Virus record (IMG/VR): IMGVR_UViG_3300037493_003396 | Span: 1-64,000 of that record | Length of the DNA: 64,000 nt | Reading direction: 5' to 3' (one strand) | Origin: a virus | Shown here: positions 14,072-58,532 of the stretch, one piece after another | How positions within the stretch are numbered: position 1 is the stretch's first letter | Layout of the letters: every line of letters begins with the position of its first letter | Program-made: the position numbers and the translations under genes | Notes under the pieces: generated by a model | Database searches by the model: none | What the model saw: the letters and a program-made list of their open reading frames with translations, nothing else | Told to the model about the DNA's origin: nothing

Positions 14072-14674
14072 ATGGCTTATAAGAAATTTGATGACCCTAA
14101 TACAAAGGTCGATGATTCAAGGAACAAGATTAACGACAATTTTATGAATTCGGCAGTCCGTCTGGCGATTCAGGGAATTGCAAACCGTGTGCTCGGTGGA
14201 ACATCCGGTACCGGTTCGACAGTAGCTCTTGCGGGATGCGCGGCTGGTGGCACGGTTGGATTCAAAACGGCTTCAGATGTGGCGATTGTTCACAACGGCG
14301 TTTATGCTTTGGTTGCCGCGAAGGACAATCTTTATTTTGGGACATGCGGTACACTGGCTGCCAATACGGTAGCGAAGTTCCTCATCTGTTCCGTTGACGG
14401 AGGTGCCGCAACCAATATCGGCCCGGGTAATGTCGTGAGTAAAGCGGACTACGCTTCTGCGACTCTCGCAGCCGCGGCGGCGAAACTTCCCGATCTGCCC
14501 AGCGGTGGTGTGGCTCTGGGTTATGTAACCCTGCACGCTCCAGCTCTGACTCAGTTGGTTTTGACTGATGGAGCAACGACAGCAGCAGCACGACTCGGTT
14601 ATGGAATCGGTGCGGCTGGAACGACCGGAACTGCGACGTATGTTGATTTGATGAATATGCCGCTTAACCTGTAA
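14072..14674 (+). CDS. virion structural protein, probable head decoration
   Basis: 200 residues, Gly/Ala/Thr-rich and β-prone (GGTSGTGSTVALAG, CAAGGTVGF, TGTATYVD). N-terminus MAYKKFDDPNTKVDDSRNKIND. GGAGG precedes the ATG. Its place immediately after the capsid gene (ignoring the HNH insert) suggests a decoration or minor head protein; no family assigned. Confidence 0.6.
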   Translation: MAYKKFDDPNTKVDDSRNKINDNFMNSAVRLAIQGIANRVLGGTSGTGSTVALAGCAAGGTVGFKTASDVAIVHNGVYALVAAKDNLYFGTCGTLAANTVAKFLICSVDGGAATNIGPGNVVSKADYASATLAAAAAKLPDLPSGGVALGYVTLHAPALTQLVLTDGATTAAARLGYGIGAAGTTGTATYVDLMNMPLNL

Positions 14675-14681
14675 TTTTCAA

Positions 14682-14704
14682 AAGGGGGTGTAAAAAACCC
14701 CCTT
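14682..14704 (+). other. intercistronic hairpin
   Basis: AAGGGGG (14682-14688) pairs with CCCCCTT (14698-14704) around a 9-nt loop between two structural genes. No T-run follows, so it may act as an mRNA stabiliser or weak attenuator and not as a terminator. A sibling is at 16484-16507. Confidence 0.6.
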
Positions 14705-14731
14705 AAAAACTTTGGAAGGGAGAGTTTTACC

Positions 14732-15052
14732 ATGGCTACAAAAAAGAGTGATGAAGAGTCGAATCCTAAAGGATATTTTAGCGGACCGAAAGGACACCCC
14801 AAGGACAGGATAGTTATCCACGAAGCTGTGGATATCCCCCGTGAAGGTATGTTCATTTCATTAAACGGATATCCGTATTTGATCAAGCCAGGCGAGGAAG
14901 TTGATGTTCCCCGTCCGGTAAGGGATATGCTGGACACACGAATCGTCACGATTACGTCTCACGATGAAAGCGGCAAGGAGTACACCAAAGATATCAAACG
15001 GGTGAACTATACTCTTATTAAACAGGATGTTGATGCGGTGGAGGCAGTTTAA
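14732..15052 (+). CDS. hypothetical structural/connector protein, 106 aa
   Basis: MATKKSDEESNPKGYFSGPK opens a charged N-terminus, followed by a β-rich region (MFISLNGYPYLIKPGEEVDVPRP). Such ~100-residue proteins are common between capsid and head-tail adaptor genes in phages with N4-gp56 capsids. GGAAGGGAG upstream. Its stop overlaps the next ATG (TAATG). Confidence 0.65.
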   Translation: MATKKSDEESNPKGYFSGPKGHPKDRIVIHEAVDIPREGMFISLNGYPYLIKPGEEVDVPRPVRDMLDTRIVTITSHDESGKEYTKDIKRVNYTLIKQDVDAVEAV

Positions 15053-16170
15053 TGCTTGGCAGTGAACTTATCACGCATTTGAGAGAGAGTATATTGGATG
15101 ATGTGGCTTTGCCTCAGTTATGGTCGGACTCGGAACTTCTCCGTTTCCTAAACTATGCTGAGGTGCAAGCCTGCCGTCGGGCTCATCTTCTAATTGATTC
15201 TTCAACAGCAAACGACAATGGCACAGCGGCAACTGCCGGCACAATGGGGCAAAAACCTTTGTGTACTCTGTCAGTAATTGCCAATCAGGCCACTTATAAC
15301 CTTTCTCCGAAGATACTCCAGATAAAGAGATGCCAGTTGCGATCAATGGTAATCCCTTTAACTGGGCCGGTTGTTTACCCGGAATTGGACGACTTGGTAT
15401 CGGGGTGGATGGGGACAGGCGGAGTGGTTACCGGCGCCGGTAACGACGGGGTTCAGGCTAAAGGAACGATTGTATCTGACGGTACTTTGGGTACCGCCGG
15501 AGCGGTTGTTACGGTCGGAACCAACGGGTACACTTTTGTTGCGACTCTATCGGCTGAGAACCATGTATTGAGAGGAACTTCTGGGGCTGATGATCTTGAC
15601 CATTTAAAATCAGCCATAAACAACGGCGGGACTTCTGCGTTACATATTTGTTCAGCCGTTCATCCGAAGGTTACGGCGGCTCACACGGTTTCCGGAACTG
15701 CAGGGACGATGACTCTTACTGCCAAACTAAACGGCACCGCTGGCAATGGGATCGCGTTATTATCAACAGATGCCCATTTAGTAATGAGCGGAACTTACAT
15801 GACGGGCGGAGTTGATAACTCAGGGGAACCTACTTACTTCCTGAATGAGCCGGGGAATACGATTACTTTCGTTCGTTCTCCGTCTTATGACGATACAGCC
15901 GATCTGGTAGTTTCGAGAATACCGTTGACGAGTTTAACCAAAACAACATCCCCCGAAATAGATGAGCAATACCATTTGGGACTTTGTGATTGGGCGGCTC
16001 ATCTTGCTTATATGAAGTCAGATACAGAAACTCAAAATCTTAACCTTTCCAAGTTTTATGAAAATCAGTTTGATAGACAATTCGGAACTTTGCCGGACGC
16101 TTACATTCAAAAGCTGAGGAAAAGCATTTCTCAGAAACAACGTATGCGACCGCGCGAGTTTGGATCCTAG
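15052..16170 (+). CDS. head-tail adaptor with an inserted Ig-like/adhesin-type domain
   Basis: 372 residues. The ends look like a head-tail connector: ESILDDVALPQLWSDSELLRFLNYAEVQACRR (residues ~10-45) and DEQYHLGLCDWAAHLAYMKSD (~315-340). Between ~125 and 265 lies a separate β-rich unit (GTNGYTFVATLSAE, LDHLKSAINNGGTS, GTAGTMTLTAKLNGTAGNGI, GTYMTGGVD) of a type seen in many phage and bacterial surface proteins. The insertion sits in a loop of the adaptor and is probably exposed on the virion neck. Confidence 0.7.
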   Translation: MLGSELITHLRESILDDVALPQLWSDSELLRFLNYAEVQACRRAHLLIDSSTANDNGTAATAGTMGQKPLCTLSVIANQATYNLSPKILQIKRCQLRSMVIPLTGPVVYPELDDLVSGWMGTGGVVTGAGNDGVQAKGTIVSDGTLGTAGAVVTVGTNGYTFVATLSAENHVLRGTSGADDLDHLKSAINNGGTSALHICSAVHPKVTAAHTVSGTAGTMTLTAKLNGTAGNGIALLSTDAHLVMSGTYMTGGVDNSGEPTYFLNEPGNTITFVRSPSYDDTADLVVSRIPLTSLTKTTSPEIDEQYHLGLCDWAAHLAYMKSDTETQNLNLSKFYENQFDRQFGTLPDAYIQKLRKSISQKQRMRPREFGS

Positions 16171-16181
16171 GAGGATTTAAT

Positions 16182-16481
16182 ATGGCGATTTTAAAATTTA
16201 AGAAAATGATCGAAGATTTGGAGACTGGTTCGACACAGGTTCTCGCAACTTTGACCATAGCGAATGTAACTACCGTTGGGTACGCTACTTCCGTAGGCAC
16301 CGCAGGGGTAATGGCTCTTGCAACCTCTGCCGCTAATGCGGGCAGTTCGTCCTTTGCAACGACCGCCTCTAAAGCCGGAAGTGCGGCTCAGGCTGGAACA
16401 GCAAGAGTTGCCCATTACGCATCGTCTGGTACAGCGAATATCGCTGGAACAAGCGCGCATTGGTCAACAGGTGGTTTATAA
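16182..16481 (+). CDS. short Ala/Ser/Gly/Thr-repeat virion protein, related to the fibre repeats
   Basis: 99 residues. After a short N-terminus (MAILKFKKMIEDLETGS) comes a repeat ANAGSSSFATTASKAGSAAQ ending TSAHWSTGGL. The same repeat unit dominates the large fibre at 17334-21620, so this gene is likely a split or duplicated N-terminal piece. AGGAGG upstream. Confidence 0.6.
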   Translation: MAILKFKKMIEDLETGSTQVLATLTIANVTTVGYATSVGTAGVMALATSAANAGSSSFATTASKAGSAAQAGTARVAHYASSGTANIAGTSAHWSTGGL

Positions 16482-16483
16482 TC

Positions 16484-16507
16484 AAGTGGGGGTGAAAGCC
16501 CCCGCTT
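16484..16507 (+). other. intercistronic hairpin
   Basis: AAGTGGGGG pairs with CCCCCGCTT (9 bp, one G-U) around a TGAAAG loop, with no following T-run. It resembles the hairpin at 14682-14704 in sequence and position. Confidence 0.6.
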
Positions 16508-16554
16508 AAACTTCACAGGGAATGACGACGAGCCCTGTTTGACGAGGAGGTTTT

Positions 16555-16941
16555 ATGGCAGAACGACGAATCCAATCTATTCCTTTATTCAAAGAAACAA
16601 AATTTGGGACATCCGGAACAACGGCAACCATTGATTCCGACGTTATAGATTTGAGAGATATTTCCCGAACAGGACAGTTTTCTCTTGCATTCAACGTCTC
16701 AACAGCCGGTGACGTAGCGAGTTGCGGATCGGTTAAATTCTCTTACTGGTGTAGTCAGAATTTCGATGGAACTTATATTTCTCCAACCGACGGAACCTTT
16801 TGCACGATAGGTAACGCTGGGTCGTTGGGGACAAGCGATGTGATCGCTTTAACGCCTCCGGTGGCCCCGTTTATTAAAATACGCGGAGTTCAAGGAACAA
16901 GTGGGACATCTCTCATAACAGCATCATTGAATGTTCGATAG
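16555..16941 (+). CDS. virion structural protein, 128 aa
   Basis: β-rich and Gly/Ser/Thr-rich: FGTSGTTATIDSDVIDLRD, then SLAFNVSTAGDVAS, FSYWCSQNFDGTYI and a closing FIKIRGVQGTSGTS. The pattern fits a tail or neck surface protein. GAGGAGG upstream of the ATG; 9 nt to the next gene. Confidence 0.55.
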   Translation: MAERRIQSIPLFKETKFGTSGTTATIDSDVIDLRDISRTGQFSLAFNVSTAGDVASCGSVKFSYWCSQNFDGTYISPTDGTFCTIGNAGSLGTSDVIALTPPVAPFIKIRGVQGTSGTSLITASLNVR

Positions 16942-16950
16942 GGGGAAGAC

Positions 16951-17337
16951 ATGGCAGAGATCCGAAGGCTTTCACTTATCAGGGGAAACAGTCTCACGAT
17001 TCCAGTAACAATGGAATCATCGGCAGGCGTTGCGTATAATATCAAAAATTGGGTGGTGTATTTCACTTTAAAGACAGATCACTCTCTACCGGATTCTCAG
17101 GCTACGTTACAGAAAATAATCACAACCTTTTCCGACACTACTTCTGGAACTACAGGGATAGCGAATATTCCTCTTGTGGAAACGGACACGCAGAACCTCG
17201 CTGTTGGAGAATATGATTTTGATATTAAGGTTTTGACGGCGGGTACTTTAGGCACATCGTCGTACACGGTTATGAAGGGAAAGTTTGATTTAGAATACAA
17301 TGTAACTGATTCGGTGGGAACAGCCGGGACGCTATGA
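16951..17337 (+). CDS. baseplate/fibre-associated protein (BppU-like fold suggested)
   Basis: 128 residues. RLSLIRGNSLTIPVTMES, YNIKNWVVYFTLKTDHSLPD and AVGEYDFDIKVLTAG resemble the small β-sandwich domain found at the N-terminus of phage upper-baseplate proteins. In place of a short hairpin the sequence carries TAGTLGTSSYT and ends VGTAGTL. Stop overlaps the fibre gene start (ATGA), suggesting the two products work together. Confidence 0.6.
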   Translation: MAEIRRLSLIRGNSLTIPVTMESSAGVAYNIKNWVVYFTLKTDHSLPDSQATLQKIITTFSDTTSGTTGIANIPLVETDTQNLAVGEYDFDIKVLTAGTLGTSSYTVMKGKFDLEYNVTDSVGTAGTL

Positions 17338-20300
17338 CAGAGATAAAAACAACAATAACATCGGACGCGCCGGTAACGGCCACGATGAAAACAGAGACTC
17401 CGGTAAAAGTAACTGTGACATCGGATTCCCCGGTTACTGCTGTTTTAAAAACTGAAACACCGATAAAAGCGCAGATATCTACAGCAGACCCAATAGTTGC
17501 GAGAATAGTCACAGGGGAAGCAGGGTCTTCTGGAACAAGTGGAACTTCGGCGGCGGGCGGGATTGCTGATTTTGCTTCTTCCGCAGGGACTTCTCTTTAC
17601 GCCGGAACATCTGGGACGGCTCTTTATGCCGCCTCTGCCGGAAACGCCGGTAGTGCGGGAAGCGCCACAACTGCCGCAAATGCTGGAACTGCGGAATACG
17701 CTATTTCTGCAGGGAACGCCGGGTCTTCTGGGTCAGCCACTACATCCGCTAATGCCGGATCATCTTCTTTTGCCACTACAGCCGCGATATCAGGCACAGC
17801 GCCTTACAGTGGGACTGCCTCATTTGCTACTTCAGCAGGGGAAAGTGGAAGCGCGGGTTCCGCAACCACAGCAGCGAACGCTGGTTCTGCCTCTTTCGCA
17901 ACAACCGCCGGGATTGCGGGTACCGCACCCTATAGCGGCACATCAGAATATTCTATTTTATCCGGAACGGCTTCTTTTTCTAATTCGGCTGGAAACTCTG
18001 GGAGCGCGGGGTCAGCGACTACAAGCGCAAACGCCGGAAGTTCATCTTTTGCGACGACAAGTTCCATCGCTGGAACAGCGCCATATAGTGGGACGTCGTC
18101 CTTTGCTACCTCTGCCGGGGACTCGGGGTCGGCAGGTTCCGCCACCACGGCGGCAAATGCGGGGTCTTCATCCTATACTACTACCGCGTCCATCGCTGGA
18201 ACGAGTCCATATAGCGGTACCGCTTCTTACGCCACCACTGCCGCAAATGCTGGCACTGCTTACAAAGCTACGTCTGCGGCTCAGGCGGGTTCGGCGGGTT
18301 CGGCAACAACCGCGGCAAACTCAGGAAGTGCATCCTTTGCTACCACAGCCGGAATCTCCGGCACGAGTCCGTACGCTGGAACAAGTTCGTTTGCGACTTC
18401 GGCGTCAACGGCGGGTTACGCCGCAACGGTGGGACCTGATATTTTAGTCAATCACATTGGCGAACAGGATACTGCTCATGGGGTCGTTATTGATAATGAT
18501 TTACATGGTGGAGTAGTTGGAGATGGGATTGATGTCGATATTCACGCCACTCTGGGAGCAGAACTGTCCCCTGTATTTACGGCGGCAAACTGGACAGCGG
18601 GCGCAGGATGGTCTATTAACGATGGAACGGGAATAGTCACGGCAGTTGCCGGTGTTGCCTCTGATCTGACTCCTTCTACTCCGATAACAGCAAATATAAC
18701 GAAGAGGTACAAACGGACATTTGTTATCACAGATTGGACAGCAGGGACATTAACCGCAACATTTGGTGGGGTTGTGAGTACACCACTCTCGGGAGACCAG
18801 ACAGTTTCTATTTATATAGATCCCTACACCACGGGGACTCTAACACTTACCAAAGATGCCGCATTTGCAGGTAAAATAAGTCTCTGTTCTTTGAAAGAAA
18901 TAACTAAAGGAAACTTAACTATTGAGGGCGACATTCATCACCTAGATTCAAGAGGACACCCTAACCGTCTAGCTTATTCAACTCGTCACATGAACGAAAT
19001 GCAGACAGATACTTTACTTGATAAATCAAGAAGCACTTTGTCTTGCACGGGTGGAGTCCTTACTTACACTTTAATTGCTATCTTCGGGAATGGTACTTTT
19101 AACTTTAATGGTATTCCTTACCCTGTAGAAGCGGATTCTGTTTCAATAGCTTTAACCGCAGGGACTGACGCAGCACCACAGATCAATTACGTTAATTTCC
19201 ACTTGGTCGGAAACACACCTACTTTAAGAGTTAGCACAACTTATCCAACAGATGTTCATATAGACGTTGCTACTTGGCTTGTGGGTACTGTTTCGGGAAG
19301 TTCCTACACTATTTACGCTTACGACAGAAACCGTTACGAAACTGAATCTTTAGTTAAGAGAATCATAGAGAGATTTGAGAAATCAGGGACTCTTTATTCA
19401 AGCGGTGGTGTGCCTACAGTCGCACAGACTACTTTGAGCATCGCTTCGGGATGCGAGTTCTTTAACGGCATCTTTGAAATGACTTCTGCTAATACTACAA
19501 CTCTGGCAGGGTTTACGATTATTAAAAACGGAGCATTTTCTGCGGCAACCTCAATAGCGGAAACTTTGTTTTATTCTGATGGCACAGCAGTCGGTAATCA
19601 TTACTTTGCTAACGTAGTATGGGGAATAGTTCCGACAACTACTACCGCAGGGGGAACGGTTGCCGTTACGGTTAAACTTTACGCTATACTTCAAACCAAA
19701 CCTACGGCTGAATACACGCTTGCACAAGCTCGACAGGATTTATATGAAGCGACAAACTACTATCCTTCAAATTCAGCAGTTAAGAATGTATTCGTTCCTA
19801 TTTGCCGAACGATAGTAAGTGAAGATAATCCAACTCAATTTCAGACATTTGATACAGGACTTTACCATAAAGACGTAAGAGGAAAGATAACAAGTGGTGG
19901 CGGTGCGGCAACATCTTACACACACCCAAATCATACAGGAGAGGTGACGTCTGTTGGAGACGGTGCTTTAACGATTGGTACTTTAACCCACGACCTACAG
20001 TTCGCCACCTACAAAGCTATCGCTATGGCTTGTGATAACGGAGCAACTCTACCATCAACCCCTGTTATTGGACAATGGTTTCTTCATACCCCAACAGGTA
20101 GAAATGTTTTAATGCAGTACACAGGTTCAGCGTGGCAGCCTATTATTAGTTTTGGTTCTATGACAATGTATGTTGCGGGGAACAGCGTTGGTTCAGATGT
20201 AGCAGATAACGGAACAGGCACAGCATACACAAGTGGCTCTCTTGTTTCGGGAAGAAGTTATCATATTTCAACTTTTGTTGCAGGTGATGATTTCTCAAAT

Positions 20301-21620
20301 GTTGGCGCATACAATATCACAGATAATCAATTCAAAGCTACAGGAACAACTCCGACAGATTGGACTCATGGCTCGACTTTAGTTGATATGGATTCCACTT
20401 CGTTCCTAACAGGTACTTATGCAGTTAGTATTATTCCACCCGTAGTAACGGGAACTGTATATATTAGATTTAGCGGTGATACTTTTGCTGAAACAATAGT
20501 GATGAGAGGAAAATATTTTAGTGGAAATTATCGAATACAATTATACGGGACTTTAGAAGTGCAAGAAATAATTTCATCAGCAACCATCACAAGGGGAACA
20601 GGAATACAAAGAAGCGTTATTACTAAATCAGGCGCATTTAATGGTGATAATTATGCTAATGTGGTCGCTTACTACGCTACAGACGGTATTTATAGAATAA
20701 TAGACGGGCATACAGTTACTTTACCTGCTGACCAAGCCTCTGTCCCAAGCACAGACGATATTGCCGTAGGAGATATTATCAAAGGTGCTACATCAGGAGC
20801 TTATGGTGATGTTTTGGAGGTAACCGGTACTGGAAGTTTTGCTAGTTCTAATTGGTCAGGAACTTTTTTAATCCAAGTTACTTATGGAACTTTCCAAAGT
20901 GGTGAGAATTTAGACAATGTAACAGACTCAAAATTAGCAGTTTGTACCACGACTTCGACTGTTACAGTTAATGACGACAATATTACAATGGTAGGAACTG
21001 CGTCTTCTTCTACAACGCAAGATGTTGTTATTTTTGATTGGCTGACTGATATTTCGATTATACAATCGGTAACAACCCAACAAGCAATAGATGTTTTTAA
21101 TTGTTATTGTTCTGATGGTGTTAATTTGAATAGTTGGGGGCGTGCTCAGTTATATAGATGTAAGTTATACAAATCAACCGGTGCTATTATTCCATTAAGC
21201 GTCAGTCAATTTTCGGTAGGAAATTTGAACCAGTGTTATATAGATGGTAGTAGTGCCAGTTCATGTGTTTTAGTAACAAATTCTTTAGTTCAAGTATCAC
21301 AATCTAAAATAATTGGTAATAGTACGGCTAGTAGTCGTTATGGTATTCAAGTATATGATATTGGTACGATAGCTTTTACTCTTGGTCAAAGTATTATTGA
21401 TGGTCTTACTTTATATACAGGGGGTAAAGGTATTTATTTACAATCTAACTCCACATTAAGACATAATCTTACTGCGGCTCAGGGATACACAAGAATAAGA
21501 AACCTTGTTACAGGAATAGGTGCAGATACAGGAGCGCAAGCAATCGCAACTAGTGTAGTCTATAGCAACAACACAACACCCACAGACGCTGTTTCCGCAA
21601 GTTACGGTTATATAGGATAA
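17334..21620 (+). CDS. large tail fibre/spike with Ala-Gly-Ser-Thr repeats
   Basis: 1428 residues. Residues ~1-60 are β-strands with repeated TSDAPVTA/TSDSPVTA units. Residues ~60-360 consist of repeats of about 15-35 residues around ANAGSASFATTAGIAGTAPY. The middle contains a β-sandwich-like region (FTAANWTAGAGWSINDGTG). The C-terminal third is rich in short β-strands and Asn/Ser/Thr (LYRCKLYKSTGAIIPL, LTLYTGGKGIYLQSNST), consistent with a β-helix receptor-binding tip. It is the main candidate for host recognition and the main possible acceptor for the glycosyltransferase downstream. Confidence 0.8.
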   Translation: MTEIKTTITSDAPVTATMKTETPVKVTVTSDSPVTAVLKTETPIKAQISTADPIVARIVTGEAGSSGTSGTSAAGGIADFASSAGTSLYAGTSGTALYAASAGNAGSAGSATTAANAGTAEYAISAGNAGSSGSATTSANAGSSSFATTAAISGTAPYSGTASFATSAGESGSAGSATTAANAGSASFATTAGIAGTAPYSGTSEYSILSGTASFSNSAGNSGSAGSATTSANAGSSSFATTSSIAGTAPYSGTSSFATSAGDSGSAGSATTAANAGSSSYTTTASIAGTSPYSGTASYATTAANAGTAYKATSAAQAGSAGSATTAANSGSASFATTAGISGTSPYAGTSSFATSASTAGYAATVGPDILVNHIGEQDTAHGVVIDNDLHGGVVGDGIDVDIHATLGAELSPVFTAANWTAGAGWSINDGTGIVTAVAGVASDLTPSTPITANITKRYKRTFVITDWTAGTLTATFGGVVSTPLSGDQTVSIYIDPYTTGTLTLTKDAAFAGKISLCSLKEITKGNLTIEGDIHHLDSRGHPNRLAYSTRHMNEMQTDTLLDKSRSTLSCTGGVLTYTLIAIFGNGTFNFNGIPYPVEADSVSIALTAGTDAAPQINYVNFHLVGNTPTLRVSTTYPTDVHIDVATWLVGTVSGSSYTIYAYDRNRYETESLVKRIIERFEKSGTLYSSGGVPTVAQTTLSIASGCEFFNGIFEMTSANTTTLAGFTIIKNGAFSAATSIAETLFYSDGTAVGNHYFANVVWGIVPTTTTAGGTVAVTVKLYAILQTKPTAEYTLAQARQDLYEATNYYPSNSAVKNVFVPICRTIVSEDNPTQFQTFDTGLYHKDVRGKITSGGGAATSYTHPNHTGEVTSVGDGALTIGTLTHDLQFATYKAIAMACDNGATLPSTPVIGQWFLHTPTGRNVLMQYTGSAWQPIISFGSMTMYVAGNSVGSDVADNGTGTAYTSGSLVSGRSYHISTFVAGDDFSNVGAYNITDNQFKATGTTPTDWTHGSTLVDMDSTSFLTGTYAVSIIPPVVTGTVYIRFSGDTFAETIVMRGKYFSGNYRIQLYGTLEVQEIISSATITRGTGIQRSVITKSGAFNGDNYANVVAYYATDGIYRIIDGHTVTLPADQASVPSTDDIAVGDIIKGATSGAYGDVLEVTGTGSFASSNWSGTFLIQVTYGTFQSGENLDNVTDSKLAVCTTTSTVTVNDDNITMVGTASSSTTQDVVIFDWLTDISIIQSVTTQQAIDVFNCYCSDGVNLNSWGRAQLYRCKLYKSTGAIIPLSVSQFSVGNLNQCYIDGSSASSCVLVTNSLVQVSQSKIIGNSTASSRYGIQVYDIGTIAFTLGQSIIDGLTLYTGGKGIYLQSNSTLRHNLTAAQGYTRIRNLVTGIGADTGAQAIATSVVYSNNTTPTDAVSASYGYIG

Positions 21621-21622
21621 AT

Positions 21623-21889
21623 ATGAAACTATTTTACAATTCAACTAAAATATATTACGCAGTCTATGACAGGGATTTATTTTCTTTTACACATTCAACA
21701 ACTATTCCCCTATTTGAATTTACTATAGACGAAATATCAGATACAAACAAAAAAGTCTGCGCTGATTTAGTTAAAAATAATAATAAATCAGACATTAATG
21801 GAATAGGAAAATATTACATTGAAAACAACGAACTCTATCTAAGAGATAATTGGGAGGCATATGAAAATATCCCTGACAACGAATACTGA
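21623..21889 (+). CDS. hypothetical protein after the fibre, 88 aa
   Basis: MKLFYNSTKIYYAVYDRDLF, Tyr/Asn-rich and acidic at the end. Starts 2 nt after the fibre stop. AT-rich compared with the fibre repeats. Position suggests a fibre assembly protein or tip accessory. Not recognised. Confidence 0.6.
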   Translation: MKLFYNSTKIYYAVYDRDLFSFTHSTTIPLFEFTIDEISDTNKKVCADLVKNNNKSDINGIGKYYIENNELYLRDNWEAYENIPDNEY

Positions 21890-22046
21890 TAAAAAAGACT
21901 TGAGCGACCAAGCTACTGCGGCAGTAACAAGACTTAACGCTATTGTTGCTATGACTACTATGACCACGGCACAGCTTACTGCGGCAGTTAAAGATATGGC
22001 AAAATACGAAAGAGCAATTATAAAAAGATTAATTCAACTACAATAG
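21861..22046 (+). CDS. small helical protein, 61 aa
   Basis: Overlaps the preceding gene by 29 nt; GGGAGG lies upstream of the ATG at 21861. The sequence MKISLTTNTDKKDLSDQATA continues with a helix rich in Thr/Ala/Met. Function unknown. Confidence 0.55.
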   Translation: MKISLTTNTDKKDLSDQATAAVTRLNAIVAMTTMTTAQLTAAVKDMAKYERAIIKRLIQLQ

Positions 22047-22058
22047 GAGGTTTTCTGA

Positions 22059-22355
22059 ATGGAAAGTTTTGTTATAGGTAATGCAGTCTTGAATGTTGGA
22101 TTGGTAGGCGGTTCTTTTGGTTTTGCTGGTTATCTCTTTAAGAGATGGATGGAACGAGTTGATGCTAAACTTGCTACAGCACATGAAGAAACTGTCGATG
22201 CGGCAGAGGCTCTTGATATTAAAATAGAAAGAATATTTGTAGAACTCAAGATAGCAAACGGGCGTACTGCTAAGATTGAGGCAAAGGTTGAATCTCACTT
22301 AGCGGTATGTGAGGATAGGAACAAAAGCAGAAGAATAGGTGACACTTGTGGATGA
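22059..22355 (+). CDS. possible holin-like membrane protein
   Basis: 98 residues. One N-terminal hydrophobic segment (IGNAVLNVGLVGGSFGFAGY) precedes a charged coiled coil (AEALDIKIERIFVELKIANG). AGGAGG upstream. Its place at the head of a lysis cassette, two genes before the endolysin, suggests a holin or membrane anchor, but a single span followed by a coiled coil fits other roles too. Confidence 0.45.
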   Translation: MESFVIGNAVLNVGLVGGSFGFAGYLFKRWMERVDAKLATAHEETVDAAEALDIKIERIFVELKIANGRTAKIEAKVESHLAVCEDRNKSRRIGDTCG

Positions 22356-22512
22356 GAATCTGGAGCTTATAGCAAAATTACAGGATGAGATACAAGAACT
22401 AAAAGACCAAGCAGTCGTTCTTAATCTGCGAATCGACAATCTGCTTATTTACTCAAAGATGGTAAAAGAAGAAAGTTTTGAAAAAGGCAGATGTAAAAAG
22501 GATAAGAAATGA
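22348..22512 (+). CDS. small coiled-coil protein, 54 aa
   Basis: GTG start at 22348 with AGGTGA 6 nt upstream; stop overlaps the endolysin ATG (ATGA). The product is an almost continuous heptad-like helix (LELIAKLQDEIQELKDQ) with a basic tail CKKDKK. May be a regulator of lysis or part of a spanin-like assembly. Unrecognised. Confidence 0.55.
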   Translation: MDENLELIAKLQDEIQELKDQAVVLNLRIDNLLIYSKMVKEESFEKGRCKKDKK

Positions 22513-22871
22513 GTCGTAAAATTATCGATCTTACTCCAGAAATGCAAGTATTGTATAACAAATTCCAAGATAGGATGGCTCAGGAAGGAGTTGATTTTAT
22601 CGTAACAGCCACTTACCGACCTCAAGCAGAACAGAATGCTCTCTACAATCAAGGGAGAACTGAACCGGGTAATATCGTAACATGGACACGGAACTCCAGA
22701 CATACCGAAAGAATAGCTTTTGACATAGCGATTTTGAAGAATGGAAAGATAACATGGAATCCGGCTGATTATTTTATTGTCGGAAAGATAGCGGAAGAAG
22801 TTGGATTAGAATGGGGAGGTTCGTGGCTAAGCCATAGGGATATGCCACATCTTGAACTAAGGAGGAAGTGA
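22509..22871 (+). CDS. endolysin, L-alanyl-D-glutamate (M15C-type) peptidase
   Basis: 120 residues with the VanY/CwlK-like pattern: TATYRPQAEQNALYNQGRT (residues ~33-52), the zinc motif SRHTERIAFDI (His and Asp ligands, ~63-73), WGGSW and the C-terminal DMPHLE (third ligand). The enzyme cleaves peptidoglycan stem peptides. The usual Gly in SxHxxGxAxD is replaced by Arg, a detail worth checking. No signal peptide, so export needs a holin. Confidence 0.9.
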   Translation: MSRKIIDLTPEMQVLYNKFQDRMAQEGVDFIVTATYRPQAEQNALYNQGRTEPGNIVTWTRNSRHTERIAFDIAILKNGKITWNPADYFIVGKIAEEVGLEWGGSWLSHRDMPHLELRRK

Positions 22872-23248
22872 TGAAGTTTTTATTTCCCGTAGCGGTGAGT
22901 TTAGTTTTTATTTTAATGGTTATGATAGTAGGATGTACTCTTTTACGTTTCCTGCCGGCAGAACAAATCGCTTTGCAAAGTATGGCAAGGAAGGCAGGAT
23001 TTATCTTTGGCAAGCAGCATCCGGAGATGATACCGCAAGCAAGATTAATTGCTTTAGGAATTGAGGCGAGCGAGGATGAGGACGTAAAAAAGAACTTTAA
23101 TCTTGCTGTTGAGGCGCTTTTAAAGCACTTCCCGAATACAATCTTAAAGCGGCAGATTGATGTAGTTCTAATCGAAATAGCCAAGACAAATGCGGACCTG
23201 ATTCCGATTGTCGAGGCATTTATTGAAGGGATGGAGAAATCATTATGA
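22871..23248 (+). CDS. membrane-anchored or lipoprotein lysis accessory protein
   Basis: The ATG at 22871 overlaps the endolysin stop (TGATG) with GGAGG 5 nt upstream. An N-terminal hydrophobic segment ending MVMIVGC looks like a lipobox, after which the mature helical domain follows (QIALQSMARKAGFIFGK). A spanin-like or anchor function is inferred from position next to the endolysin; family unassigned. Confidence 0.5.
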   Translation: MKFLFPVAVSLVFILMVMIVGCTLLRFLPAEQIALQSMARKAGFIFGKQHPEMIPQARLIALGIEASEDEDVKKNFNLAVEALLKHFPNTILKRQIDVVLIEIAKTNADLIPIVEAFIEGMEKSL

Positions 23249-23661
23249 AAGGTGATCATATTGAGTATCAAAGTGGGTATAAATACCAAGTTCGTAAGAA
23301 GTATATAGTCCAAGTTGGTATCTTTCCGGATAAGGATATCATTACTCCGTTCTTAAAGCTTCGTACGAATGGTAATCTTGAGATTGAATTAGGATATGCC
23401 TGGGATGGTGCGAGTGGGCCTACTTGGGATGATAAGACTAATATGAGGGGCTCTTTAGTTCATGATGCTCTTTATCAACTCATGCGTGAAGGCGTATTGC
23501 CTCTTACATATCGAGCCAAGGCTGATGATCTCTTAAGCGAGATAATGATTGAAGACGGTGCGTGGAAGATAAGAGCCAGCTATTACCACCTTGCAGTAGA
23601 TAGAGTAGGGCTTACTGGAGCTACATGCGAAGGTGAAAGAAAGATAAATATAGCCCCTTAA
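23245..23661 (+). CDS. DUF1353 family phage protein
   Basis: 138 residues. Signature WDGASGPTWDDKTNMRGS followed by LVHDALYQLMREGVL and YRAKADDLLSEIMIEDG, then the conserved YYHLAVDRVG. DUF1353 proteins are common in phage lysis and tail regions; function unknown, though the conserved His/Asp pattern suggests an enzyme. Start overlaps the preceding stop (ATGA). Confidence 0.88.
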   Translation: MKGDHIEYQSGYKYQVRKKYIVQVGIFPDKDIITPFLKLRTNGNLEIELGYAWDGASGPTWDDKTNMRGSLVHDALYQLMREGVLPLTYRAKADDLLSEIMIEDGAWKIRASYYHLAVDRVGLTGATCEGERKINIAP

Positions 23662-23690
23662 TGGGTTTTATGCTAATAAAGTAATCTGAA

Positions 23691-23753
23691 GTGCCTTGGA
23701 GGCTAGGAAGATATTCCGAAGACGGACCCCTCCCGTCGCGCCTCCGAGGCCAC
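23691..23753 (+). ncRNA. candidate structured RNA (three-way junction)
   Basis: An 11-bp closing stem (23693-23703 with 23740-23750) encloses two hairpins: GGAA-GATA-TTCC (23706-23717) and GACGG/CCGTC with a 7-nt loop (23721-23737). GTG/CAC could extend the closing stem with one bulge. No T-run follows, so it is not a simple terminator. It lies in the 136-nt gap before the glycosyltransferase gene and could be a leader element or a small RNA. Confidence 0.5.
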
Positions 23754-23797
23754 CAACTAATCAGAGGGAATCCTTCGGGGGAAAGGCAAGGTAAACA

Positions 23798-26755
23798 ATG
23801 TTTAAAGAGATCAAAGTAAAAGCAAGTTTTAACGAAAGAACGGGGTACGGAATCCACGCGAGTCGGTTTTTTCCGGAACTGCAGAAGCTCGTTCCATCAG
23901 ATGGAACCGGCACCGTTCATATTGCGTTACTTGATACAGTCAGCGCCTCACAGGCGACAGAATTTGCTCCAAGTCCGTCAATCCTTTATAACGTATGGGA
24001 AAGTGACGAGCAACCACAAGATTTCATCGACAAATTAAAACATTATGATCAGCTATGGGTTCCGAGTGAATGGCAGAGGGCGGCTTCTATTGCCCAGGGA
24101 GTTCCGGAGGAATTTGTAAAAGTAGTTCCGGAAGGGGTTGACCCAGAGATCTATAAGCCAGTTAAAGAGGGAGAGCATAAAAGCTTTACTCACTACCCAT
24201 TTACTTTTCTTGTTTGTGGTCAGTGGCAGCACCGCAAATCAACACTTGAAATAATCCAAGCCTTTTTAAAGGCGTTTCCCGCAGAAACTTTCAGCAGATT
24301 TGACCAGGCGGAGAAAATTGTATTATATCAAGATGTACGTCTTGAGCTTTCAGTTGATACTTTATTCCCATCAGACCCTTATAAATCTACCGAGGAGAGG
24401 TTAAAAGCCTATGGCATCGATGACCCAAGAATCAGCGTTATACACTTTGAAGAGAGAGCAGACTATATCCGGAGGCTTCAATCAGCCCACTGCTTTGTGT
24501 CCTGTTCCCGTTCAGAAGGTTGGGGGTTGCCTATCGGGGAGGCAATCGCTGTCGGGTTACCTACAATCGTGGCAGATTGGGGTGGAAGTACAGAGTACGC
24601 TGGCAATGCTATTAATGTCAGGATCAAGGAATTAAGAAAACCGGAAGGGATTTATGGTGGTTGGAATGTCCCTGGGCATTGGGCAGAACCGGATTATGAT
24701 CATCTTGTTGAACAGATGAAACTTGTTTACAACACTTACCCGATTCACAAAACATTAGCTTTAGAAAACGCAGAGGTAATGCGAACGGAGTTTTCATGGA
24801 AAGCCGCTGCCGAGAAAGCCTATAAAATACTGGAAGAATTAGCGGATAAAGTTCCTCTACCTATTGAAGAAAAAATGGTTATCAGGGGAGATAGTTTCGA
24901 GAAAGACATGAGAACTCTTGCGGCTAAGAACGGAATGGAAATAACCGGCATTAAAAAGAGAAAGGCTATTTTCAGTATCGACTGCCATCCTTGCTCTCAG
25001 GAAAGAATCGATGTTTTAATCGAAACCATTAATCAGGTACGACCCTTTGGTTATCCGATACTTGTTGTAGCTCATCTACCCCTCCCAGAAGACGTTATTA
25101 AGTTATGTGACTACTACATCTACGATAAGAACGACATCATGTCAGGGGACGACCTGCCGACTTATTCACGCACAAAACCGGATGGGACGGTGGAATACAC
25201 GAAAGCCAGCAAACCCTGTCACGCACTCGCGGGTTTGTTGAACTGGCGGAATGCCATTAATTTCTGCCGCGGTCGGTGGGATTGGATTTACCAGATGAAC
25301 TCCGATGTTGAAATAGACATCAATGAGTGGATGGAGAAAGTCTATGCTTCCGACAAAGATATAATTGCTGTCCGGTGGGAAGGAGCCAAAGATACCTTTG
25401 GTGGGCAGATATGCGCCTCTAGGGTAGAAGCGATTGATAAAATATTCTTCCCTGTAGAAACATGGGAACAATTTGCGGCGACAATGAAAGAACACCGGTT
25501 CTGTTCTGAAAGAGGTTATTATAGAATAGCCGAACAGATGGGGCTGGAAAATATAGAGTTTATTGACATTGAAATGGGGAATCTGTTTGATCAGGTTGAC
25601 CGAGAAGCGTGGGGCGAAGATACTTTCCAGTATCATTTTGTTGAAGGTCCGTTTGTCCAAATTAACGGAATGTCAAAGAACGAGTACGATGTTGAATTTT
25701 CCTCAGAAAAACACACTTACAAGACCAAGTTAAAGGCGAATATGTGGTGCCGTCCGGAAGTAAAATACTATCAGGATTGGACATTAACAGTTCACCTAAA
25801 TGGGGAGTTGAAATTAGAGCATAAATTTAACCCCACTGGTCAGAAAATATTGATCTCTATGGGGTCAAAAGCTCTGGGCGATACGATTGCTTGGATGCCT
25901 TACATTGAGGAATTCAGAAAGAAACACGACTGCCATGTCGTGTGTTCGGGGTGGTGGCAAGAAATGTTCGACTATCCCGAGATTGAATTTGTGAAGCCAG
26001 GCGCTCTTATTGACGGAGTTTATGCTTCCTACGGAGTTGGTTGTTACGACGATCAGTTAAATCTGAATGTAACGAACTGGCGTTCTACAAATCTCCAACA
26101 GGTCGCGGCTGATATATTGGGGGTAGAATACAAGCCAATACGCGCCAAGTTAAAAGTCGTTCCTCATAAGAAAAAGAAAAAACCCTATATTTGTTTCTCC
26201 GAGCATTCGACCATGAGAAACAAACTCTGGAATCGTGAAGGAGCATGGCAGAAGGTTATTGATCATGTCAAGTCATTAGGAATGGACGCTATATCTATCA
26301 GCAACGAAAAGTCCGCAGTTAAAGGAGTTCTTGACCACGCCAACCAATCAATCCAAAGAAGTATTACGGACATTGATGGATGCGAGTTTTATGTCGGGTT
26401 GAATGCCGGACCTTCTTGGATAGCCTACGCTCTTGGCAAACCAGTCATAATGTTGACCGGAGTCTCAGAGGAGTGGAACGATTTCCCAAATCCTTACAGA
26501 ATAGCGATAAACAATGAAGTTTGCGGAATAGGTTGTTTTAATGACCCGACACTTCCTATAAGTAGAGACTGGTTATGGTGTCCCCGAGACAAAGACTATA
26601 TTTGCACGGGTAACATAACCGAGCAAATGGTCATGGACATGATAGATCAGGTTATGGCAGACGTTGGTGTGCCTCACCATGACAGAAAGCACATAGCCAT
26701 CGGACAGCCAAAGGTTGAGAGTAATCATCATGATGCGCCTGAAGTGGTGTGCTAG
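23798..26755 (+). CDS. three-part glycosyltransferase: GT4 + middle domain + O-heptosyltransferase-like domain
   Basis: 985 residues. The N-terminal GT4 domain (~1-350) carries FLVCGQWQHRKS and the nucleotide-sugar site SRSEGWGLPIGEAIAVGLP (~236-254). A middle region (~385-640) starts AIFSIDCHPCSQERIDVLIE and includes WDWIYQMNSDVEIDINEW, suggesting a GT2-like nucleotide-diphospho-sugar fold with a DxD-like motif. The C-terminal domain (~680-970) begins KILISMGSKALGDTIAWMPY and has GLNAGPSWIAYALGKPVIML and a cysteine-containing NNEVCGIGCFNDP, resembling 'autotransporter strand-loop-strand O-heptosyltransferases'. Such enzymes glycosylate Ser/Thr of repeat proteins. The final residues are overlapped by an antisense HNH gene. 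Confidence 0.82.
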   Translation: MFKEIKVKASFNERTGYGIHASRFFPELQKLVPSDGTGTVHIALLDTVSASQATEFAPSPSILYNVWESDEQPQDFIDKLKHYDQLWVPSEWQRAASIAQGVPEEFVKVVPEGVDPEIYKPVKEGEHKSFTHYPFTFLVCGQWQHRKSTLEIIQAFLKAFPAETFSRFDQAEKIVLYQDVRLELSVDTLFPSDPYKSTEERLKAYGIDDPRISVIHFEERADYIRRLQSAHCFVSCSRSEGWGLPIGEAIAVGLPTIVADWGGSTEYAGNAINVRIKELRKPEGIYGGWNVPGHWAEPDYDHLVEQMKLVYNTYPIHKTLALENAEVMRTEFSWKAAAEKAYKILEELADKVPLPIEEKMVIRGDSFEKDMRTLAAKNGMEITGIKKRKAIFSIDCHPCSQERIDVLIETINQVRPFGYPILVVAHLPLPEDVIKLCDYYIYDKNDIMSGDDLPTYSRTKPDGTVEYTKASKPCHALAGLLNWRNAINFCRGRWDWIYQMNSDVEIDINEWMEKVYASDKDIIAVRWEGAKDTFGGQICASRVEAIDKIFFPVETWEQFAATMKEHRFCSERGYYRIAEQMGLENIEFIDIEMGNLFDQVDREAWGEDTFQYHFVEGPFVQINGMSKNEYDVEFSSEKHTYKTKLKANMWCRPEVKYYQDWTLTVHLNGELKLEHKFNPTGQKILISMGSKALGDTIAWMPYIEEFRKKHDCHVVCSGWWQEMFDYPEIEFVKPGALIDGVYASYGVGCYDDQLNLNVTNWRSTNLQQVAADILGVEYKPIRAKLKVVPHKKKKKPYICFSEHSTMRNKLWNREGAWQKVIDHVKSLGMDAISISNEKSAVKGVLDHANQSIQRSITDIDGCEFYVGLNAGPSWIAYALGKPVIMLTGVSEEWNDFPNPYRIAINNEVCGIGCFNDPTLPISRDWLWCPRDKDYICTGNITEQMVMDMIDQVMADVGVPHHDRKHIAIGQPKVESNHHDAPEVVC

Positions 26756-27151: not shown

Positions 27152-27372
27152 GATTTAAAATGGGAGAAAAAGATGGCGGAGAAAAAACATTTAACACAAG
27201 TCCATTAAGTGACCCGAGGGCGGAGGATTCAAACTATCTTCCGTTTGATATTCCGATTGGGAAAGCAAAAGATTACCCTGATACTCCGGAAGGTCGAAAG
27301 AAGATGTTTAATGTTTTAAAAATGATACGAAAAGACAATAATCCCAATAATGGTTTTGGGATTGGAGGATAG
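27145..27372 (+). CDS. hypothetical protein, 75 aa
   Basis: MSRFKMGEKDGGEKTFNTSP, then a Pro/Asp-rich segment and a helix RKKMFNVLKMIRKDNN ending GFGIGG. GTGGG precedes the ATG at 27145; an upstream in-frame start at 27115 is less likely because it lies in the antisense promoter. A similar GNFGIG ending closes the protein at 33596-33970, suggesting that both belong to the same virion sub-assembly. Confidence 0.6.
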   Translation: MSRFKMGEKDGGEKTFNTSPLSDPRAEDSNYLPFDIPIGKAKDYPDTPEGRKKMFNVLKMIRKDNNPNNGFGIGG

Positions 27373-27373
27373 T

Positions 27374-28279
27374 ATGGCAGAGCAGATTTACAGCTTGGCG
27401 TATTTTACCGGAATAAATACTGTTGATGATTCTGTCAGAATGGCTCCGGTTCCGGTTGAAGCAGGCGGAATTAAGTCTGCTTATTCCCTAACTTCTGCTG
27501 TTAATGTGGACATAGACAATTCTTACGCCTTGAAGAGCCGAGCCGGATGCACAAAGAAAATATCAGGAACGAATATTCATAGTTTGTGGAGCCGGAAAGA
27601 ATATGGGTTTTATCTTGACGGAAGTAGTCTTTACCTCCTCAACCCAGACTACACAACGTCATTACTATTGTCATCGCTCAGTTTAGATCGAATGTCTTAT
27701 GTTGCTGTTAATGATAGGGTTTACATGACCAATGGAACGTACATAGGTTATTATGATGGGACGATGCACAGCCTATCAGTTCCTACGCAAACGTACAAAA
27801 GACCGTTACCGGCGGGGCAGTTGATCGCCTACATAAAAGGAACTTTGATGGTTGCCTCTGGGAAAGTTGTTTATCTCTCAGATGCGTTATGCGATCATTA
27901 TGACGAAAGAAGTGGGTTCAGAGTTTTCGAAAATAATGTTTTAATGTTACGACCGGTGGATGACGGGGTTTATGTTTCCGATGGCTCAACTTGGTATTTA
28001 GTTGAAAGAAGCGATGACCCTGCTGAGTATAAAAAAGAATACATAAATAGTATCGGGGTAGTCCCCTTTTCGGACGTTGTTGTAGACGGCGCTTACGTTG
28101 GGAAGGGTGTTGAGGGGAAAGTCGCTCTATGGGCAACCGATGAAGGGATTTGCATGGGGGATAACAAAGGCGGAGTGAAACTATTAACTCCGAATTATTT
28201 GATGAAACAACTCGGCAGAGGTGCCGCAATGATCAGAAATCTAAACGGGCAAGTTCATTATATTGCGACTATGAGGTGA
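27374..28279 (+). CDS. tail protein, β-propeller-like
   Basis: 301 residues; GGAGGATAGT precedes the ATG at 27374. It has repeated β-hairpin motifs: KEYGFYLDGSSLYLLN, VAVNDRVYMTNGTYIGYYDG, VYVSDGSTWYLVERS, VALWATDEGICMGDNKGG. Repeated 'YVSDG.TWY' units are typical of propeller-type tail tube/nozzle proteins of podovirus-like phages. N-terminus contains NVDIDNSYALKSRAGCTKK, a common start for such proteins. Confidence 0.6.
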   Translation: MAEQIYSLAYFTGINTVDDSVRMAPVPVEAGGIKSAYSLTSAVNVDIDNSYALKSRAGCTKKISGTNIHSLWSRKEYGFYLDGSSLYLLNPDYTTSLLLSSLSLDRMSYVAVNDRVYMTNGTYIGYYDGTMHSLSVPTQTYKRPLPAGQLIAYIKGTLMVASGKVVYLSDALCDHYDERSGFRVFENNVLMLRPVDDGVYVSDGSTWYLVERSDDPAEYKKEYINSIGVVPFSDVVVDGAYVGKGVEGKVALWATDEGICMGDNKGGVKLLTPNYLMKQLGRGAAMIRNLNGQVHYIATMR

Positions 28280-28615: not shown

Positions 28616-29062
28616 ATGTGTGCATTGCGTTTATCAACAGGCTTAAGATCGGGAATAGCGGGAACATTGGGACTTCAAACAATGCTCCAGGGCGGACACA
28701 TTGACATTTATTCAGGCGGTCAACCGGCTTCCGCAGATTACGCAGAGACAGGGGTAAAATTAGTAAGAATCACTGTCGCAAGTGGTGATGTGGCTACAGC
28801 GGGATTGGCTTTTACCGCCGCAACTTTAGGCATACTGGGGAAGAGTGGGACGACATGGTCGGGTATCGCTTCCGTAGCAGGCGTGGCGGGTTATTTCCGG
28901 TTTTATTGCACAGCGGGTACTTCCGGTTCGTCGGCTACCGACAGGAGAGTTGACGGAAATGTAGGAGTTAGCGGATCTGACCTTGTCTTGGCGAATACTT
29001 CTCTGGTCGCGGGTGCAACTTTGACGGTTGATACATTTGCTCTGACAGTACCTAGCGCATAA
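28616..29062 (+). CDS. virion surface protein A of a tandem pair
   Basis: 148 residues: LRSGIAGTLGLQTMLQGGHIDIYSGGQPA, then VRITVASGDVATAG, AGYFRFYCTAGTSGSSATDR and a β-rich end. The 'IDIYSGGQPASAD' motif recurs as 'LRIYSGAAPATAD' in the next gene, so the two are paralogues. AGGAGG upstream. Function unknown; probably decoration or tail. Confidence 0.65.
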   Translation: MCALRLSTGLRSGIAGTLGLQTMLQGGHIDIYSGGQPASADYAETGVKLVRITVASGDVATAGLAFTAATLGILGKSGTTWSGIASVAGVAGYFRFYCTAGTSGSSATDRRVDGNVGVSGSDLVLANTSLVAGATLTVDTFALTVPSA

Positions 29063-29071: not shown

Positions 29072-29512
29072 ATGGCTTATCGAATTAATGGTCCTTTGCG
29101 GTCATTGATGGTTGACGTCGTGACGGCTAGACTTTCAGGAACAAACGGTACTGCCGGAACTCAGGGGATGTTGCGCATTTACAGCGGTGCAGCTCCGGCT
29201 ACAGCTGACGAAGCCCCGGGTGCTAATAATGTTCTTCTTGTTTCAATCGCGAGTAATGCGGCGGGAACTGGAATCAACTGGTCGTCTGGTACCAATGGAA
29301 CCGCAGTAGCAAGCAGGGCTCAGTATCTTGGGACGGCGGCGACTTCGGGCATTGCCCAATGGGGCAGATTATCAGGAACAGACGGGACTGGATACGTCGT
29401 TCAGGGAGATGTTGGCACTTCGGCAACGTCGGCATTTATTATTAATTCAGTTACTATTGCCGCATTGTCTGTTGTTTCAATGAACTCAATGACGATGATT
29501 CAAGATGGGTAA
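29072..29512 (+). CDS. virion surface protein B, paralogue of the preceding gene
   Basis: 146 residues with the same layout: LRSLMVDVVTARLSGTNG, then MLRIYSGAAPATADEAPG, ATSGIAQWGRLSGTDGTG and DVGTSATSAF. Divergence is high outside the motif. Many Gly-Thr pairs lie in predicted loops. AGGAGG upstream. Confidence 0.65.
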   Translation: MAYRINGPLRSLMVDVVTARLSGTNGTAGTQGMLRIYSGAAPATADEAPGANNVLLVSIASNAAGTGINWSSGTNGTAVASRAQYLGTAATSGIAQWGRLSGTDGTGYVVQGDVGTSATSAFIINSVTIAALSVVSMNSMTMIQDG

Positions 29513-57877: not shown

Positions 57878-57886
57878 CGGTGCATA

Positions 57887-57902
57887 CAGCACCAGAAGGA
57901 GG
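57887..57902 (+). repeat. CAGCACCAGAAGGAGG ribosome-site module, copy 2
   Basis: Identical to 49659-49674 and 58258-58273. It supplies the Shine-Dalgarno for the Cys-rich gene at 57907. Confidence 0.75.
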
Positions 57903-57906
57903 GAGT

Positions 57907-58451: not shown

Positions 58452-58532
58452 TATGACAGATATTAAATCTATGAGGAATGTAATTCATCAGATGTGATGT
58501 CCCGTGTTTGTTCATGTCACTATCGTATAGAT

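Follow-up and report, generated by a model that had tools for sequence, protein, structure and literature searches.

The phage studied here probably glycosylates its own particles: a CDP-6-deoxyhexose-type sugar made by the phage would be used by a fused GT4/GT-A/BAHT-like enzyme to O-glycosylate loops of the fibre and of the head-tail connector. BAHT-type enzymes adjoin Ser/Thr-rich fibres in many unrelated phages, which suggests that these phages sugar-coat their own particles. An earlier note on the window (the whole stretch of viral DNA that was analysed, 64,000 nucleotides) had proposed glycosylation of the fibre and of the capsid surface. Loops of the fibre and connector remain the predicted targets, but the major capsid protein was free of the motif.

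A TibC-like domain in the fused glycosyltransferase

The three parts proposed for the large glycosyltransferase were all identified. From its sequence and modelled structure, the 985-aa enzyme consists of a GT4 domain, a GT-A-fold domain, and a TibC-like (BAHT) O-heptosyltransferase domain.

23798..26755, + strand: fused glycosyltransferase, 985 aa (GT4, residues about 1-350; GT-A fold, about 385-600; TibC/BAHT-like, about 607-952)
25595..26662, + strand: BAHT-like domain of the 985-aa enzyme (residue mapping onto TibC)
27350..28279, + strand: head closure protein Hc3 (phrog_8040), the next gene after the enzyme

The GT4 part was matched by Pfam, and SdgB was among its structural matches. The middle domain showed a GT-A fold, with matches that include glycogenin, GlyE, and COLGALT1. 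The BAHT-like domain covered profile positions 9-374 of 374 of TIGR04414 with 192.5 bits, just below the curated cut-off of 200 bits, and phmmer matched it to TibC (4rap) with an E value of 1.5e-35. Structure prediction of the C-terminal domain (AF2 and Foldseek) gave the TibC fold, with a TM score of 0.80 by target length. The suggestion that the last domain resembles enzymes that O-glycosylate repeat proteins was therefore borne out in both sequence and fold.

Residues were mapped onto TibC in 11 proteins of the window's clade and in 65 phage BAHT domains. In TibC, Asp110 is catalytic and Arg286 contacts the adenine of ADP-heptose (PMC4358343). D695, T805, K809, and W874 of the enzyme correspond to TibC D110, T226, K230, and W305, and the catalytic Asp and the Thr/Lys/Trp donor residues were kept across the clade and in 62-65 of the 65 phage domains. 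The iron-finger residues C909, C913, C928, and C936, which correspond to TibC C339, C342, C358, and C370, were present in 11 of 11 clade proteins. The position of TibC R286 is S855 in the enzyme and Ser or Thr throughout the clade, and Arg was found there in only 6 of the 65 phage domains. Arg286 is required by TibC, and its replacement in the window's clade counts against self-glycosylation by this enzyme.

Gly-Ser/Thr motifs in the fibre and other virion-module proteins

14072..14674, + strand: virion-module protein with GTSG, proposed acceptor (motif in 24 of 29 clade homologues)
15052..16170, + strand: SU10-type head-tail adaptor, proposed acceptor (PF24175, E 6e-18), with GTAG/GTSG loops
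16182..16481, + strand: 99-aa repeat protein, like the fibre repeat
16555..16941, + strand: virion-module protein with two GTSG motifs (motif in 14 of 15 homologues)
16951..17337, + strand: virion-module protein (phrog_1084) with GTAG (motif in 16 of 16 homologues)
17334..21620, + strand: fibre-like protein, 1428 aa, proposed main acceptor, with N-terminal Ala/Gly/Ser/Thr repeats of about 300 residues that include GSSGTSGTS
28616..29062, + strand: phrog_3758 virion structural protein with a GTSGSS run
29072..29512, + strand: phrog_3758 paralogue with GTAG

The repeats of about 300 residues that had been described in the fibre were found at roughly residues 61-370. GSSGTSGTS (residues 64-72) is the sole G-X-Y stretch of this fibre, which is an Ala-rich variant; homologous fibres of relatives bear long (G[ST]S)n runs, and the relatives have an identical fused enzyme architecture with a repeat-rich fibre upstream. 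Pfam gave no PF01391 match for the window's fibre, which was not classed as a collagen-like tail fibre. In NCBIfam it matched collagen-like adhesin models weakly and nothing else, and no autotransporter strand-loop-strand substrate was found near the enzyme. When the fibre repeat and the insertion of the adaptor were searched for in annotated phages by tblastn, with the low-complexity filter on, no match was obtained. The glycosyltransferase said to follow the fibre is real, but a lysis-type block (22059-23661) intervenes. In KPP25, the Hc3 gene lies immediately after the lysis genes, with no glycosyltransferase between them.

The Gly-Thr/Ser runs reported earlier were present in all of the proteins listed above. 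GT/GS/TG/SG dipeptides exceeded the number expected from composition in the proteins at 15052 (25 vs 13.1), 16555 (12 vs 6.4), and 29072 (17 vs 8.7) and in the fibre (114 vs 82.7), and were near expectation in replication and sugar genes. G-[S/T]-[S/A]-G was recurrent in several unrelated virion-module proteins of the window's clade: in the six non-fibre families of the clade that bear motifs, G[ST]AG occurred 118 times (4.1 expected from shuffling) and G[ST]SG 69 times (2.7 expected). The motif search found none in the major capsid protein (12184), the portal (8324), or the head closure protein (27350).

The head-tail adaptor contains an additional Gly/Thr-rich insertion of about 125 aa. Its motif was present in 22 of 23 homologues from BAHT+ phages and in 0 of 17 homologues with no detected BAHT gene, a contrast of one clade with its relatives and therefore not an independent one. 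At the motif sites, the gap fraction in the latter homologues was 0.73, compared with a background of 0.17, which places most of the motifs in loop-like insertions. The earlier note had held that the same enrichment without a linked glycosyltransferase would speak against its proposal. The adaptor showed no such enrichment, but the phrog_3758 family (28616/29072) is Gly/Ser/Thr-rich regardless, also in BAHT-less KPP25 and Seuss, and its enrichment is therefore partly intrinsic.

BAHT domains and (G-[S/T]-S)n fibres in other phages

Runs of (G[ST][ST])n with n of at least 3 were found at 39 of 64 non-redundant phage BAHT loci, at a median distance of about 1.5 kb from BAHT where a run was present. 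They occurred in 33 of 50 BAHT+ records, 17 of 50 having none, compared with 5 of 50 controls, in which the matches listed were of GST order. The permuted motif GSTGSTG was picked as a composition control; it marks ordinary phage collagen-like fibres and is a natural control. BAHT was present in 18 of 50 GTSGTSG-run records but in 1 of 50 GSTGSTG records, and in records of at least 60 kb the numbers were 15 of 20 and 0 of 11. PF01391 was found in 8 of 8 BAHT-linked GTS proteins of other phages, which were classed as collagen-like tail fibres; such proteins matched PHROG tail fibre families, and some also Peptidase_S74 and CBM_5_12.

The enzyme might instead alter envelope glycans of the host (LPS or O-chain) and so exclude competing phages, with the Gly/Ser/Thr-rich fibres being unrelated neighbours because both lie in the variable tail region. 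When a phage glycosyltransferase gene lies close to tail fibres, this is how it is customarily read (Pelagimyophages, PMC7029224), and GT9 is the superfamily of the LPS heptosyltransferases. However, it is unlikely here: the protein O-heptosyltransferase TibC fits the BAHT-like domain, iron finger included, far better than LPS heptosyltransferases do, the ordinary collagen-like fibres of similar contigs lack the BAHT link seen with the Ser/Thr type, and the loop insertions of the adaptor would be left unexplained.

It is quite unlikely that the runs are generic flexible or collagen-like structure that co-occurs with BAHT through shared ancestry or ecology, the enzyme's target being elsewhere. 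BAHT and the runs are physically linked, and runs were present in all major BAHT clades of the deep tree. The third position within the runs was 99% Ser, with all synonymous codons in use, and this strict G-[ST]-S differs from the G-[A/P/S]-[T/Q] of non-BAHT collagen. In favour of a generic origin, collagen-like fibres are widespread in phages, and the phrog_3758 proteins are Gly/Ser/Thr-rich without BAHT. The link with multi-domain architecture (GTS in 37 of 53 multi-domain vs 2 of 11 stand-alone BAHT, p 0.002) is suggestive, but it is confounded by phylogeny and did not reach significance in a comparison of pairs on the tree. Some GTS contigs also have no visible BAHT: among terminase relatives of Microcystis phage Mel-JY01, which was the one named isolate in which both BAHT and a GTS fibre were found, 9 of 23 contigs had runs and 1 of 23 had BAHT, although contigs break at repeats and the fibre lay at the contig end in most cases retrieved; G048 and G196, with a GTS fibre and no visible BAHT, are real exceptions.

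Modified DNA bases are often the substrate of phage glycosyltransferases, but this common role is highly improbable for the enzyme, since base-hydroxylating or base-modifying biosynthetic genes were not found among the genes scanned and the closest fold is that of a protein glycosyltransferase.

Sugar-nucleotide genes

54759..57219, + strand: DegT aminotransferase, formyltransferase, and PseH-like acetyltransferase (sugar N-modification)
57212..57877, + strand: rhamnosyl O-methyltransferase/CmcI-like protein (PF04989, E 7e-77; syntenic)
59454..60236, + strand: glucose-1-phosphate cytidylyltransferase-like enzyme (TIGR02623, 254 bits, cutoff 300; syntenic in G007 and G008)
60726..61751, + strand: CDP-glucose 4,6-dehydratase (TIGR02622, 389.9 bits, over cutoff)
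61720..63003, + strand: sugar C-methyltransferase-like protein (PF08421/PF08484)

The sugar-nucleotide enzymes noted earlier at 54759-63003 are real, but 58596-59390 is a DNA methylase. The CDP-sugar cluster was syntenic in both other near-complete genomes (G007 and G008), whose CDP-glucose 4,6-dehydratases were also over the TIGR02622 cutoff. The DegT aminotransferase, formyltransferase, and PseH-like genes were found in the window only and not in G007 or G008. No over-cut-off match to ADP-heptose synthesis genes was obtained among 50 BAHT+ records.

Proposed mechanism and comparison with known systems

We infer the reaction, its donor, the order of the sugars, and the biological benefit of self-glycosylation as follows. 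A CDP-6-deoxyhexose-type sugar would be built by the phage's own enzymes, and Ser/Thr residues within loops of the fibre and connector proteins, in the Gly-flanked context G-[S/T]-[S/A]-G, would be O-glycosylated in the host cytoplasm, ahead of assembly. The TibC-like domain most likely attaches the first sugar to the protein, which the GT-A and GT4 domains would extend. In relatives, the main acceptor would be the stalk of a tail fibre, collagen-like but Pro-free and built of (G-[S/T]-S)n repeats, and the Ser/Thr-linked sugar could stiffen this stalk, standing in for proline/hydroxyproline, and mask the particle.

More tentatively, there may be a widespread phage system in which TibC-like multidomain enzymes are dedicated to Pro-free (G-[S/T]-S)n fibres as a glycan-stabilised collagen, the G-[S/T]-[S/A]-G sequon is loop-inserted into other virion proteins, and donor nucleotide specificity has changed in clades that make CDP-sugars. 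The pairing of these repeats with such enzymes was not reported in the literature searched, subscription papers and preprints lying outside it, and the system is apparently undescribed so far. DNA or host LPS is the customary assumed target of phage glycosyltransferases; a TibC-like enzyme with a specific repeat offers a definite substrate that can be tested for a large set of phage enzymes not yet characterised, with at least 579 confirmed relatives. The pairing would account for odd GTSGSS-type fibres and points to proline-free glycosylated collagen in prokaryotes. If true, sugar-coated fibres would influence how phages recognise their hosts, how stable they are, and how visible they are to the immune system.

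The TibC/BAHT autotransporter heptosyltransferases (TIGR04414; PMC4358343) share with the phage domain the fold, the N-terminal beta module, the catalytic Asp, the Thr/Lys/Trp donor residues, and the four-Cys iron finger, and they too have a repetitive surface protein as partner. In contrast to TibC, the phage domain is fused behind GT4 and GT-A, falls just below the family cut-off, and has lost Arg286; its partner would be a phage fibre or connector rather than an autotransporter, and the phage sugar genes are CDP-type. BclA of Bacillus spores (PMC8968730) has a collagen-like surface stalk that is glycosylated, but it is a bacterial spore protein, whereas in the phages G-[S/T]-S repeats without Pro are found in tail fibres, where glycosylation is predicted. 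EPclP of E. coli O157 prophages (PMC3368898) resembles the GTS fibres in having a G-X-Y stalk in tail fibres; however, fibres of its type are GPK/GPQ/GPA-rich and the recombinant protein was unglycosylated, whereas the BAHT-linked type is of Ser/Thr. The adhesin systems of GlyE, which matched the GT-A domain in structure, and of SdgB, which matched the GT4 domain, also comprise cytoplasmic glycosyltransferases that act on repetitive Ser-rich surface proteins, but these are separate bacterial enzymes with no BAHT-like domain and with other repeats (serine-rich-repeat and SD-repeat). A wider body of work exists on virion glycosylation in mycobacteriophages. Like the window's phage, these encode glycosyltransferases proposed to act on virion proteins; for mycobacteriophage Maravista, virion glycosylation was announced as a prediction (PMC11256854).

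BAHT-like domain of the fused glycosyltransferase

The N-terminal part of the fused glycosyltransferase of the window (985 residues; 23798-26755, plus strand) was assigned to GT4 by Pfam. The middle part had no Pfam assignment, and AlphaFold and Foldseek showed a GT-A fold (pLDDT 85), with matches including glycogenin, GlyE, and COLGALT1. Residues about 607-952 aligned end to end with TIGR04414, the profile of the TibC-type autotransporter heptosyltransferase family (BAHT), at 192.5 bits, slightly short of the cut-off of 200, and matched TibC in PDB with an E value of 1.5e-35. TibC was also the top Foldseek match of the AlphaFold model (TM 0.80 by target length), which bore out the earlier note's remark that the last domain resembles enzymes that O-glycosylate repeat proteins.

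The TibC residues Asp110, Thr226, Lys230, and Trp305 and the four iron-finger cysteines were retained in all 11 proteins of the clade (the window phage and close relatives sharing the fused enzyme). The position of Arg286, which in TibC touches adenine and is the basis of ADP specificity (PMC4358343), was Ser or Thr in all 11. Among 65 phage BAHT domains, the Asp, Lys, Trp, and three cysteines were invariant and Arg286 was retained in six. We therefore call the enzyme BAHT-like and not a family member.

Genome setting

The virus record totals 66,351 bases, of which the window covers 64,000. The large terminase, portal, major head protein, SU10-type adaptor, head closure protein Hc3, and phrog_3758 structural proteins were recognized in the window, and the gene order from terminase to Hc3 was the same as in Pseudomonas phage KPP25, in which gene order comparison showed no glycosyltransferase between the lysis genes and Hc3. 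The fused enzyme was kept by all viral relatives with the gene complete on the contig. A Gly/Ala/Ser/Thr-rich fibre (window 17334-21620, plus strand) lay upstream of it in seven of the eight relatives whose contig reached far enough, the exception being locus L013, and the lysis genes between fibre and enzyme differed among relatives. The contigs L100 and L101, which carry the labels Candidatus Nitrosotalea MAG and Deltaproteobacteria MAG respectively, were syntenic with the clade and are probably phage contigs binned into MAGs. An AntA/AntB antirepressor domain protein was found at window 53417-54073.

BAHT-like genes and GTS fibres across phages

A profile search of viral contigs gave at least 579 BAHT-like relatives, of which the best 80 were kept; the 64 non-redundant loci included close relatives and database phages. 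Among the matches listed, (G[ST][ST])≥3 runs lay inside about 10 kb in 39 of the 64 loci, and the median distance from run to BAHT was 1.5 kb. The coding pattern for runs was matched in 33 of 50 whole records with a detected BAHT-like gene, being missing from 17, and in 5 of 50 controls (P = 8e-9, among the matches listed); the controls mixed GSTGSTG-selected records with MCP relatives, one of them had BAHT, and the control matches shown were in GST order. BAHT was found in 18/50 GTSGTSG records and 1/50 permuted GSTGSTG records (P = 1.4e-5), and in records of at least 60 kb the counts were 15/20 and 0/11, again among the matches listed. These samples are hence non-random, with phylogenetic dependence only partly handled, and since some records are fragments, BAHT-negative means that none was detected in the sequence at hand.

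The GSTGSTG records held ordinary collagen-like fibres, in which X was Ala, Pro, or Ser and Y was Thr or Gln, whereas in BAHT-linked tracts X was Thr or Ser, Y was Ser or Asn, and Pro was below 0.5%. That ordinary collagen records rarely carried BAHT and were distinct in composition argues against a mere tail-gene neighbourhood. The GSTGSTG-type records L322-L400 represent a distinct phage collagen class, G-[A/P/S]-[T/Q], and the GSTGSTG-type contigs G115, G116, and G129 encode GT4 enzymes.

Triplets in the runs were almost exclusively GSS and GTS and used every synonymous codon, which indicates selection at the protein level. The BAHT-linked GTS proteins were tail fibres by PF01391, Peptidase_S74, CBM_5_12, and PHROG matches. 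GTS runs occurred in every major clade of the BAHT tree, and the pairing was seen in the isolate Microcystis phage Mel-JY01 and in a 735-kb phage. The latter (LR756501.1, L123) carried an extreme repeat load, one strand giving 1275 matches to the pattern for G-[S/T]-S runs. In Mel-JY01 (PP395634), a long plus-strand GTS/GSS-repeat ORF was found at L122:2-3052; the annotated minus-strand hypothetical gene (739-2298) is probably a wrong-strand call.

Among terminase relatives of Mel-JY01, runs were present in 9 of 23 contigs and BAHT in 1 of 23, an absence that says little because the repeat gene was at the contig end in most contigs fetched. Contigs G048 and G196 were true exceptions, with GTS runs and no BAHT. 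Contig G184, with no BAHT match, contained the following feature:

L501:6400-7998, GT8+GT9 fusion near a GTS collagen-like fibre

The gene order of contig G073 was the same, and this fusion is possibly an alternative enzyme for the same job as BAHT.

Gly-Thr/Ser motif in virion-module proteins

The Gly-Thr/Ser runs that the earlier note listed were present and exceeded composition expectation. G[ST]AG occurred 118 times and G[ST]SG 69 times in those non-fibre virion-module proteins of the clade that bear the motif, compared with 4.1 and 2.7 in shuffles. G[ST][AS]G was essentially absent from the terminase, portal, major capsid protein, and Hc3. The proposal that the phage glycosylates its own fibre and capsid surface is partly supported: the sequence evidence strengthens it for the fibre and connector proteins, which may be glycosylated, but not for the major capsid protein. 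The connector features were:

15052-16170, plus strand, SU10-type head-tail adaptor
15409-15822, extra Gly/Thr-rich insertion of about 125 residues in the adaptor, a length variant confined to the window, L025, and L044

The adaptor motif was present in 22 of 23 clade homologues and in none of the 17 homologues taken from relatives in which no BAHT gene was detected. It was also present in L101, a divergent BAHT-bearing contig, although the adaptor was just 34% identical. Motif sites clustered in two short loops and mostly coincided with gaps in the BAHT-negative homologues (38 of 55 sites; gap fraction 0.73, against a background of 0.17), as expected if the extra Gly-Thr residues were loop insertions. 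The phrog_3758 proteins were partly Gly/Ser/Thr-rich in phages without BAHT too, so their enrichment was only quantitative.

Proposed mechanism and phage sugar genes

Judged from its domains, the enzyme appears to have no secretion or membrane part, and modification would therefore most likely be cytoplasmic, nucleotide-sugar-dependent, and ahead of assembly. The TibC-like domain would prime Ser/Thr, and the GT4 and GT-A domains would lengthen the chain. Candidate donors are heptose or the phage's own CDP-sugar; that Arg286 has been lost is consistent with a change of donor without proving it. By analogy, a Ser/Thr-linked sugar could provide stability to Pro-free collagen-like stalks: sugar-given stability has been suggested for collagen-like BclA (PMC8968730) and noted as a known mechanism (PMC3368898).

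Genes for glucose-1-phosphate cytidylyltransferase, CDP-glucose 4,6-dehydratase, a sugar C-methyltransferase, and a CmcI-like methyltransferase were syntenic in two other near-complete genomes, and the aminotransferase, formyltransferase, and acetyltransferase genes were found in the window only. A radical-SAM gene closed the CDP-sugar cluster:

L117:3509-4744 (just beyond the window end), L103:2204-3442, and L108:15608-16837, B12-binding/radical SAM enzyme

The CDP-sugar clusters of relatives also held additional radical-SAM-like genes.
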